DNA from: Clostridia bacterium
GTDB taxonomy: Bacteria; Bacillota; Clostridia; Christensenellales; QALW01
Direction of reading: 5' to 3'
NCBI GenBank assembly: GCA_017516345.1
Contig: JAFXDC010000065.1
Span: forward strand, 64,481 to 124,637
Length of the DNA stretch: 60,157 bases
Positions within the stretch are counted from its first letter, which is position 1. Each line of letters opens with the position of its first letter. Of the stretch, positions 2,672-48,376 are shown piece after piece. The position numbers and the translations under genes were made by a program. Below the pieces are notes generated by a model. It had not been told where the DNA came from, ran no database searches, and saw only the letters and a list, made by a program, of their open reading frames with translations.

Positions 2672-3241
2672 ATGCCGCCAAAGATAAGGGTTACAAAGGA
2701 TGATATAGTTAATGCTGCGGTGGAGCTTGTCAGACAAGGTGGGGCAGAGGCAATAAATGCCCGTGCCATTGCCGTCCGTCTTGGATGCTCTACTCAGCCT
2801 GTATTTTCAAACTTTGATACTATGGATCAGCTTCTGGAGCAGGTGATATCTGCTTCTTATGATGTCTATCTTGATTTTTTAAGCAATGAGGCACAAAGCG
2901 GAATATATCCCCAATATAAGGCCTTTGGCATGGCGTATATTCGCTTTGCCAAGGAGGAAAAGGAGCTTTTCAAGCTTTTGTTCATGAGAGACAGAGGGAA
3001 CATGGAGATTGCTCCCACTTCGGATTTTGACGCCTCGGTCGAGCTTATAATGAAGGCAAACGGGGTCTCAATGGATCGAGCAAGACGTATGCACCTTGAA
3101 ATGTGGTCTTTGGTACACGGTATAGCAACCATGCTTGCGACCTCCTTTACATGTCTTGATTGGGAGCTTATAAGCGATATGCTGACCGATGTATATCAAG
3201 GTATTCGTAACAGGTCGGGAGGTTCAAATGCAAGCAATTAA
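2672..3241 (+). CDS. TetR/AcrR family transcriptional regulator
   Basis: The 189-aa protein begins with a typical TetR helix-turn-helix (ITKDDIVNAAVELVRQGGAEAINARAIAVRLGCSTQPVFSNF in outline; DNA-contact helix around residues 27-48) and ends with a helical ligand and dimer domain resembling TetR_C/WHG-type domains. The start has a strong GGAGGTG site. It overlaps the first bases of an ABC transporter ATPase gene, and the three genes form one operon. By analogy with this arrangement it most likely represses its own operon and is released by the exported compound. The inducer cannot be inferred. Confidence 0.85.
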   Translation: MPPKIRVTKDDIVNAAVELVRQGGAEAINARAIAVRLGCSTQPVFSNFDTMDQLLEQVISASYDVYLDFLSNEAQSGIYPQYKAFGMAYIRFAKEEKELFKLLFMRDRGNMEIAPTSDFDASVELIMKANGVSMDRARRMHLEMWSLVHGIATMLATSFTCLDWELISDMLTDVYQGIRNRSGGSNASN

Positions 3242-3956: not shown

Positions 3957-4684
3957 GAATGTTGACCTTTGCAATAAGAAACACAAAGGAGATACTCCGT
4001 GACCCTTTGACGGTGATCTTTGGGCTGGGGTTCCCGCTTATTCTTATATTACTGCTTAGCGCAATACAGGCAAGCATCCCCGTACAGTTGTTTGAAATTA
4101 CCCGCCTTGCGCCGGGAATAGTGGTGTTTGGACTGTCCTTCATGACCCTGTTTTCGGCAACCCTGATATCTAAAGACAGAAAAAGCTCGTTTCTTCAAAG
4201 GCTGTATACTACGCCAATGACGGCGATGGACTTTGTGCTCGGATATGCCTTGCCCATAATTCCGTTTGCGGTGGCTCAAAGCTTTATCTGCTATACGGTA
4301 GCGGTGCTTCTCGGACTTGAGATCTCTGTAAGCATTCTTACTGCGATATTATTCATAGTACCTATCTCGCTGTTATACGTTGCATTGGGATTGCTTTTTG
4401 GCAGCATCCTTACCGATAAACAGGTAGGGGGGATATGCGGTGCATTGCTGACCAATCTGTCAGCATGGCTTTCGGGTATTTGGTTTGATCTTAAGCTGGT
4501 AGGCGGAGCCTTTGAGGATATAGCGCATATGCTTCCGTTTGTACATGCAGTAGAAATGGAGCGTGAGATTATCGCAGGAAATATAGCAGGTATTTTTCCG
4601 CACCTATGGTGGGTGTTAGGGTATGCAGCTTTAACCACAACCATTGCGGTACTGCTATTCTTAAGACAAATGAAAAAGCAATAG
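3953..4684 (+). CDS. ABC-2 type transporter permease
   Basis: A 243-aa membrane protein of the ABC-2 family, with six predicted hydrophobic segments beginning at LTVIFGLGFPLILILLLSAI and ending at LGYAALTTTIAVLLFLR. It carries the internal pattern typical of DrrB/NodJ-like permeases (RLYTTPMTAMDFVLGYALPI). The start codon overlaps the stop of the ATPase (ATGA). With that ATPase it would form a homodimeric exporter in the cytoplasmic membrane, controlled by the TetR protein two genes upstream. The operon ends at a clear terminator. Confidence 0.88.
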   Translation: MRMLTFAIRNTKEILRDPLTVIFGLGFPLILILLLSAIQASIPVQLFEITRLAPGIVVFGLSFMTLFSATLISKDRKSSFLQRLYTTPMTAMDFVLGYALPIIPFAVAQSFICYTVAVLLGLEISVSILTAILFIVPISLLYVALGLLFGSILTDKQVGGICGALLTNLSAWLSGIWFDLKLVGGAFEDIAHMLPFVHAVEMEREIIAGNIAGIFPHLWWVLGYAALTTTIAVLLFLRQMKKQ

Positions 4685-36034: not shown

Positions 36035-36178
36035 ATGTACGAATGTAAGATTGCAGAAAAATTGGCGGCCCTTCGCATATCAAACGGAGTAACGCAAGAG
36101 GATGTAGCTCAAAGCTTGTCCGTATCAAATAAGACCATATCAAAATGGGAGAACGGTTGTACACAAATCAAGGCGTAG
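36035..36178 (+). pseudogene. Truncated XRE-type helix-turn-helix regulator (47 aa)
   Basis: The frame encodes a standard lambda-repressor-like domain (KIAEKLAALRISNGVTQEDVA, then SVSNKTISKWENG) and stops after TQIKA. The usual fourth and fifth helices are missing. The last codons and the TAG lie inside the first palindrome of the repeat array (CAAGGC GTA GCCTTG), so the array appears to have interrupted the gene. Promoter and ribosome binding site (GAGAGGTTG) remain, so a short product may still be made. Confidence 0.6.
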
Positions 36179-36345
36179 CCTTGTATATCATCAATTCCGA
36201 AGGAATTGCATATCATCAACACAAAGTGTTGTATATCATCAAGCCGTAGGTAGATACACGCTGACGCGTGATGAGATACACGGCGTTGCCGTGATGATAT
36301 CCAGCCCCGCAGGGGCTGATGATATGCCAAACCTGCGGCTTGGAT
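36167..36345. repeat. Array of different short palindromes joined by a constant linker
   Basis: Six hairpins with different arms (CAAGGC/GCCTTG, CAATTCC/GGAATTG, CAACAC/GTGTTG, CACGC/GCGTG, CACGGC/GCCGTG, AGCCCC/GGGGCT), most with 3-nt loops, are separated by TATATCATCA or CATATCATCA in the first half and by TGATGATAT or close variants in the second. The linkers of the two halves are complementary. An outer stem, CAAGCCGTAGGT with ACCTGCGGCTTG, encloses the last three. It begins within the HTH gene and ends just before the tRNA-Ala terminator. No coding capacity is seen. Confidence 0.75.
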
Positions 36346-36349
36346 AAAT

Positions 36350-36386
36350 AAAAAGAGAACTTTTGGTAGACAAAAGTTCTCTTTTT
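36350..36386 (-). terminator. Terminator of tRNA-Ala
   Basis: Perfect 16-bp arms AAAAAGAGAACTTTTG / CAAAAGTTCTCTTTTT with a 5-nt loop, two bases beyond the tRNA 3' end. Confidence 0.9.
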
Positions 36387-36388
36387 GT

Positions 36389-36464
36389 TGGTGGAGATAA
36401 GCGGATTCGAACCGCTGGCCTGTTACATGCGAAGCAACCGCTCTACCAACTGAGCTATACCCCC
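36389..36464 (-). tRNA. tRNA-Ala(CGC)
   Basis: On the minus strand the acceptor GGGGGTA pairs with TATCTCC, which places the alanine identity pair G3-U70; discriminator A and an encoded CCA follow. The anticodon stem GTTGC/GTAAC holds the loop TTCGCAT, anticodon CGC. D-arm TAGCTCAGTTGGTAGAGC and T-arm AGCGGTTCGAATCCGCT are standard. Confidence 0.93.
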
Positions 36465-48138: not shown

Positions 48139-48149
48139 GAATACTTCTT

Positions 48150-48248
48150 GACTTTATCTTCCTACGATGGCATTACCCATATCAGGTTAAAGGGTCAAAA
48201 GCAGTATAGCTTTAATCTCAGCCGAATTCCTTCAGCACCCCTGACTTA
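48150..48248 (-). promoter_or_regulatory. TPP riboswitch (thi box)
   Basis: On the minus strand the aptamer reads AGTCAGGGGTGCTGA, then CGGCTGAGA, then ACCCTTTAACCTGAT, then GGTAATGCC and GTAGGAAG, in the order and spacing of the TPP riboswitch. TPP binding would favour the terminator at 48111 and shut off thiT. Confidence 0.95.
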
Positions 48249-48376
48249 TTCAATTGATTGTATTATAATTATTCGCATGCTCTTTGTCAAATATTTTTTT
48301 ACAAATCATATGTTATTTATTATTGAAATTAATATTGCGGTGTGATATAATGGTAAAAACAGCATTTGGAGTATTT

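Follow-up and report, generated by a model that had tools for sequence, protein, structure and literature searches.

A solo hairpin array behind a tRNA gene in a Clostridia bacterium, probably the non-coding module of a mobile element family encoding PF05635 proteins

We investigated an array at positions 36166-36346 of the window (the whole 60,157-nucleotide stretch of Clostridia bacterium DNA analysed here), made up of six small hairpins together with an outer stem of 12 bp, between a truncated regulator gene and the 3' end of a tRNA-Ala gene. The features of the locus, in the order in which they are met on the tRNA strand, are as follows.

36389-36464 (- strand): host gene tRNA-Ala, anticodon CGC, encoded CCA, with the array behind its 3' end (ARAGORN, Rfam)
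36347-36389 (no strand): T, an A-tract, hairpin and T-tract resembling a bidirectional terminator, directly after the tRNA CCA (inverted repeat)
36330-36342 (- strand): S, self-palindromic first hairpin, equal to the right arm of the outer stem
36318-36325 (- strand): linker, GATGATAT on the + strand
36302-36318 (- strand): hairpin F, AGCCCC-GCA-GGGGCT
36293-36300 (- strand): linker, GATGATAT on the + strand
36279-36293 (- strand): hairpin E, CACGGC-GTT-GCCGTG
36270-36277 (- strand): linker, GATGAGAT on the + strand
36257-36270 (- strand): hairpin D, CACGC-TGAC-GCGTG
36240-36251 (- strand): S', left arm of the outer stem
36232-36240 (- strand): reverse-complement linker, TATATCATC on the + strand
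36217-36231 (- strand): hairpin hp3, CAACAC-AAA-GTGTTG
36209-36217 (- strand): reverse-complement linker, CATATCATC on the + strand
36192-36208 (- strand): hairpin hp2, CAATTCC-GAA-GGAATTG
36184-36192 (- strand): reverse-complement linker, TATATCATC on the + strand
36166-36183 (- strand): hairpin hp1 (stem-loop 36169-36183)
36035-36178 (+ strand): 47-codon fragment of an HTH_3 (XRE-type) gene that ends at the array, with its stop codon within hp1 (HTH_3, E = 6e-9)

The hairpins are joined by the linker TATATCATC, which switches to GATGATATA at the array midpoint; left-side linkers read TATATCATC with one CATATCATC, and right-side linkers read GATGATAT or GATGAGAT. The outer stem (36240-36251 / 36330-36342) contains 12 pairs, one of which is T.G. 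The array folded with z-scores of -4.6 (+ strand) and -4.8 (- strand), none of 200 shuffles folding equally well, and TGATGATAT, allowing at most one mismatch, occurred 59 times in the window against 23 expected. Repeat, fold and copy analyses thus confirmed the original prediction of hairpins with unlike arms, a constant linker that flips, and an outer 12-bp stem. What that prediction overlooked is the location at a tRNA 3' end, T as a part of the unit, the PF05635 gene of related copies, and the link to Gut-1 RNA.

Beyond the array, GGATAAA follows directly, then the T hairpin and then tRNA-Ala(cgc) on the opposite strand; there is no second HTH half on this side, so the HTH gene is shown only as truncated at the junction and not as interrupted. 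At the other edge, the hp1 sequence CCTTGATT corresponds to the -35 box (TTGATT) of an outward promoter in intact copies. In the window copy no -10 box follows hp1 and the promoter is gone, as is the PF05635 gene expected after it. Since two copies of the same subfamily (G000:C10 and G105:C66) keep both the promoter and the PF05635 gene, the window copy is a solo derivative, and its identity as a decayed, solo, tRNA-anchored array of the PF05635 elements is well supported.

A genome-wide and cross-genome search gave no sign of the single-copy occurrence that would have refuted the original prediction. The genome itself (a 1.6 Mb MAG, about 70% complete) returned 16 matches to the array, of which 8 were long (at least 8 long copies), and relatives were found in 27 of the 396 genomes of the order and 15 of its 142 genera, with a patchy distribution. 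An array in another family (G079:C71) was 83% identical to the window copy, whereas the full-length copies in the window copy's own genome were 74-78% identical to it.

We then cut 18 full or nearly full copies (from the genome itself, G001, G002, G013 and one viral contig) at their linkers. All 18 displayed three hairpins, a linker flip inside the outer stem, and three further hairpins. The Watson-Crick fraction of stem positions was 0.95-1.00 when each hairpin kept its own arms and 0.50-0.61 when arms were swapped between copies, and RNAalifold predicted 41 pairs from seven same-genome copies, with two-sided compensatory change in 20 of the 41, the outer stem included. The arms differ between copies yet keep pairing, while linker and order stay constant. 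Together, the arm-swap and RNAalifold results exclude chance and plain sequence conservation, and bear out the earlier proposal that pairing is kept by compensatory change.

Several copies depart from the common layout. One (L005 1255-1349) contains a hairpin with a nested linker-hairpin insertion (GATTGTATATCTCGCCGCAGGCGAGTTATACATTCAATG), and three tandem TATCATC arrays precede one PF05635 gene at L327/L323 (G105:C66:1-640). Two arrays are chimeric (L036 500-764 and L068 5300-5620), with the initial TATCATC-subfamily hairpin or hairpins fused to ATGATG- or GTGAAAT-linker arrays, which suggests recombination within arrays.

Read on the tRNA strand, a complete unit runs from the tRNA CCA through T, array and promoter to a PF05635 gene, often followed by a passenger gene. 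Other array copies lie beside the tRNAs for Ser, Ala(ggc), Trp and Arg, among others. In other genomes (e.g. L046) an identical T accompanies various tRNAs, indicating that T moves together with the array. In all 51 tRNA-linked PF05635 copies examined, an A-rich/hairpin/T-rich stretch opens the unit immediately at the tRNA end. Where there is no tRNA, a conserved gene can take its place, the unit lying behind the gene's 3' end; profile-confirmed cases are rlmD, guaA and groEL as well as a member of the isocitrate/isopropylmalate dehydrogenase family and the gene of an amino-acid ABC ATPase. The promoter, TTGATT-N17-TATAAT, takes its -35 box from the edge of the last hairpin; 16 of 28 copies matched it, two of them with weaker matches that lie inside the array. 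On one contig, two T sequences have identical arms and an inverted loop (GTAGA vs TCTAC; L039 1220-1260 vs 3990-4030), which amounts to a hairpin inversion.

The promoter leads into a gene of family PF05635 ('23S rRNA intervening-sequence protein', IVP) in G003 and G000:C10, and in six genomes nearly all PF05635 genes have an upstream hairpin array, each with its own linker. We tested this association with 138 distinct PF05635 genes. At least four hairpins were present within 330 nt upstream of 92/136 genes, compared with 10/125 downstream and 7/106 far upstream; the remaining 44/136 had fewer than four detected hairpins upstream. A same-strand tRNA was located less than 700 nt upstream of 58/121 genes, mostly at distances of 207-285 nt, compared with one opposite-strand tRNA, and only one gene had any tRNA within 700 nt downstream. 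A split linker, defined as a 6-mer (K) found at least twice in the 5' half with its reverse complement (rcK) at least twice in the 3' half, occurred in 93/138 upstream regions versus 2 in shuffled and 8 in downstream sequence, such that the complementarity of left and right linkers noted at the window array holds across many linker families.

Each linker is paired with its own protein lineage. Among locus pairs with 80-99% protein identity, 96% had the linker in common, whereas the common fraction of arm words was only about 0.26-0.42; these results indicate that linkers evolve with the protein and arms turn over. The protein reads SNTLFQIRKSSSSVYANIREA... in the TATATCATC subfamily and FQLRKSSSSVFANITEAQYPQS... 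in the sister TATGTAATC subfamily, in several host families. Its predicted fold (pLDDT 95) matches S23 (2rld) and Avd of the DGR complexes. The protein may bind RNA or single-stranded DNA, and the array is likely the cognate nucleic acid of this four-helix-bundle protein. At G000:C10 (L190:1132-1812, - strand) the PF05635 protein is fused in frame with a pyrophosphatase-like domain, which elsewhere is a separate, coupled cargo gene (L269:2845-3147).

Strand polarity is evident in the stems. Single mismatches read on the tRNA strand comprised 30 G.T against 5 A.C (p = 2e-5, from related, non-independent loci). As a strand-neutral process would give equal numbers of the two, the folded tRNA-sense strand, either RNA or single-stranded DNA, is likely the functional form, although strand-biased mutation could contribute part of the asymmetry. 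Pairing between the left and right linkers (L and L') contributes on average about -26 kcal/mol beyond the hairpins, and the outer stem about -6. These two pairings cross, and the energies together with the covariation therefore suggest alternative folds or a pseudoknot. An array RNA would require read-through from the tRNA, since the array has its promoter downstream and T upstream.

All Rfam matches of the array in the window were below threshold, among them Gut-1 RNA (RF01706) at 19.4 bits on the + strand, under the 50-bit gathering threshold; this match looked like noise at first sight and proved meaningful. Gut-1 was described as a noncoding RNA candidate from the human gut only, with neither gene context nor function in the main text (Weinberg et al. 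2010, PMC2864571). Within GTGAAAT-subfamily arrays we found Gut-1 matches at gathering score, almost always on the tRNA strand, and the model, three hairpins with GUGAAAU linkers, equals half of one array. Like the window array, Gut-1 has short hairpins and a constant linker on the tRNA/gene strand, and its matches lie near tRNAs and PF05635 genes; unlike it, Gut-1 covers three hairpins of the GUGAAAU-linker subfamily, linkers that are absent from the window array, which uses GAUAUCAUC in the same layout. Gut-1 and PF05635 co-occurred in 28 of 151 genomes, with about 8 expected. Gut-1-like arrays were far more numerous than PF05635 genes (23 vs 1 in G002, 30 vs 6 in G013), a surplus that is expected for solo copies. 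The orphan Gut-1 RNA thereby gains a genomic home in tRNA-linked arrays. Elsewhere in the window, Rfam detected a TPP riboswitch (RF00059) at 48142-48252 (- strand).

Empty sites were identified by comparing G002 and G003, which belong to one genus. Downstream of tRNA-Trp, G003 has a plain terminator and then ung; G002 has T, a window-type array, promoter, HTH gene, second gene and right-end motif, then a second unit with a GTGAAG-family array and promoter, and only then ung. The sites at tRNA-Ala(ggc), tRNA-Arg(ccg) and tRNA-Lys are also empty in G003. For the window copy itself, a search by rpsF synteny found no clean empty site, the relatives having no tRNA there and a different gene order. 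Judged from these sequence comparisons, the empty sites in a congener, the serial insertions, the patchy distribution and the diversity of cargo genes point to mobility. The original prediction that the array looks mobile accordingly stands as far as dispersal and empty sites are concerned, but its picture of a simple insertion splitting the HTH gene is not supported, this gene being shown only as truncated at the junction.

We regard the window array as probably the non-coding, structured 5' module of an element from a mobile family, present here as a solo copy. A complete copy reads, on the tRNA strand, tRNA...CCA, T, palindrome S, hairpins F, E and D, arm S', hp3, hp2 and hp1, outward promoter and PF05635 gene, to which some copies add a passenger gene; the window copy has lost the PF05635 gene and promoter. 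The conserved entity is probably the folded tRNA-sense single strand, as read-through RNA or single-stranded DNA, in which pairing would be the sole requirement on the hairpin arms and the linkers would be the sequence-specific part. The linker halves L and L' might pair with each other into a ladder of junctions, or the linkers might be bound by the cognate four-helix-bundle protein. Copies take up positions immediately after a tRNA CCA end or past the 3' end of a gene, as with rlmD, guaA and groEL, and we infer mobilisation in trans, with the recombination activity assumed to be supplied from there.

In a rival reading, which we hold tentatively, the units may form an unrecognised, integron-like gene-cassette system of gut Clostridia, in which one-gene mobile cassettes stack behind tRNA genes. 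Each cassette would comprise a terminator, dendritic hairpin array, promoter, four-helix-bundle gene and one passenger gene, and would dock at tRNA genes or at the 3' end of one of a small number of other genes, such as rlmD and guaA. The array would act, as attC does, as a folded single-strand DNA recombination signal combined with a promoter, and a putative RNA/ssDNA-binding PF05635 protein would be the accessory that reads its own linker code. Different cargo genes do follow closely: in 11 of 70 loci the PF05635 stop overlaps the next gene's start as ATGA, frequently preceded by an AAGGAG-like stretch, and the neighbouring genes are mutually unlike (34 candidates, among them GNAT acetyltransferases, methyltransferases, NUDIX, VOC/glyoxalase, nucleotidyltransferase, phosphatase and others). 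Solo arrays also drive unrelated genes from TTGATT-N17-TATAAT, two units are stacked at tRNA-Trp of G002 and none in G003, and the target sites (tRNA, guaA, rlmD, groEL, isocitrate/isopropylmalate dehydrogenase) resemble integrase sites. The right-end motif recurs ahead of the next unit, but in six places only; no recombinase is tied to the arrays, and many PF05635 genes have no coupled cargo. ATGA coupling, cargo and right-end motif support a cassette system and do not prove it. The tRNA 3'-end duplication on the far side that a tyrosine-integrase tRNA-site element would leave was not found in the 51 tRNA-linked PF05635 copies, in which far-side repeats, except for one 15-mer, were no longer than in the control, and we rejected such an element. 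This result also counts against integron-like cassettes.

That the array is simply a non-coding RNA or a tRNA trailer, immobile and kept to regulate the downstream gene, would agree with the strong conservation of structure, the strand-specific G.T tolerance and the publication of Gut-1 as a noncoding RNA candidate (PMC2864571). We nevertheless consider it unlikely, given the high number of copies in a genome, next to various tRNAs and genes, the congeneric empty sites, the patchy taxon spread and the chimeric arrays. A retroelement, whose folded RNA would be reverse-transcribed with an Avd-like protein as partner, draws on the similarity in fold to Avd and on arrays being far more numerous than protein genes; 14 of 18 carrier genomes gave no match to a reverse transcriptase (RVT_1), among them G013 with six PF05635 matches and G119 with four, and this origin is very doubtful. 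Least plausible are palindromes of the REP/BIME type moved by a RAYT transposase. The arrays share with them a dispersed, intergenic and palindromic character, but Y1_Tnp was absent from the array's own genome (about 70% complete), contrary to the REP-associated transposase that the original prediction had envisaged, and the palindromes themselves are not conserved, the linkers alone being so. The further proposal that the array is neither a CRISPR, nor a REP, nor an ordinary MITE was supported.

Among the closest known systems is the 23S rRNA intervening sequence (IVS) with its S23/IVP protein (PF05635 / TIGR02436), which has the same protein family, likewise surrounds a small four-helix-bundle gene with structured nucleic acid, is sporadic in its spread, and was proposed long ago to be mobile (PMC4990558). 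The arrays differ in lying behind tRNA CCA or gene 3' ends rather than inside 23S rRNA (the window array lies behind tRNA-Ala and not in a 23S rRNA helix), and in having multiple hairpins, split linkers, a promoter of their own and, in many cases, cargo. Avd, part of the ribonucleoprotein of diversity-generating retroelements, has the same four-helix-bundle fold (4dwl, 8ub7, 8ube; TM 0.75-0.83); unlike those systems, most array carriers tested have no reverse transcriptase. Integron cassettes and attC are alike in conserving structure with varying sequence, in single-gene cargo and in serial insertion at an anchored site, and differ in using one hairpin instead of six to seven with split linkers, and in not being anchored at tRNA ends. 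REP/BIME elements with RAYT are dispersed extragenic palindromes (Di Nocera et al. 2013, PMC3733652), whereas the arrays have unlike arms and no common palindrome.

The open PMC literature yielded no paper joining PF05635 with tRNA-linked hairpin arrays. The association joins three loose ends: Gut-1, the PF05635/S23 family known mainly from 23S rRNA IVS, and the unexplained hairpin arrays that are so dense between the genes of gut Clostridia. Furthermore, strand polarity, linker-protein match and empty sites make the old idea of IVS mobility testable on many natural copies. If cassettes are exchanged, they would offer a route to accessory genes for mostly uncultured gut bacteria.

We also considered and rejected a phage origin: pattern matches in IMG/VR were mostly coding repeats, two kinds of viral-contig array lay at the contig edge next to host-like flanks, one of these two beside a putative tRNA-Pro that a prophage seems to have cut, and only six PF05635 relatives occurred in viral contigs. 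At L136 100-480 we observed an apparent prophage junction within a putative tRNA-Pro, the 3' end of which carries a TATCATC array. Finally, a second class of elements, about 170-220 bp long, ends in inverted and direct copies of the tRNA 3' end (e.g. TTTGGCGGAGTTG...CAACTCCGCCA) and is placed between the tRNA end and the next terminator or array (L039, G000:C32:1-5500, at about 1040-1218, 2639-2808 and 2890-3067; also L146 and L174, in G003); it looks like a separate small element that restores the tRNA end.
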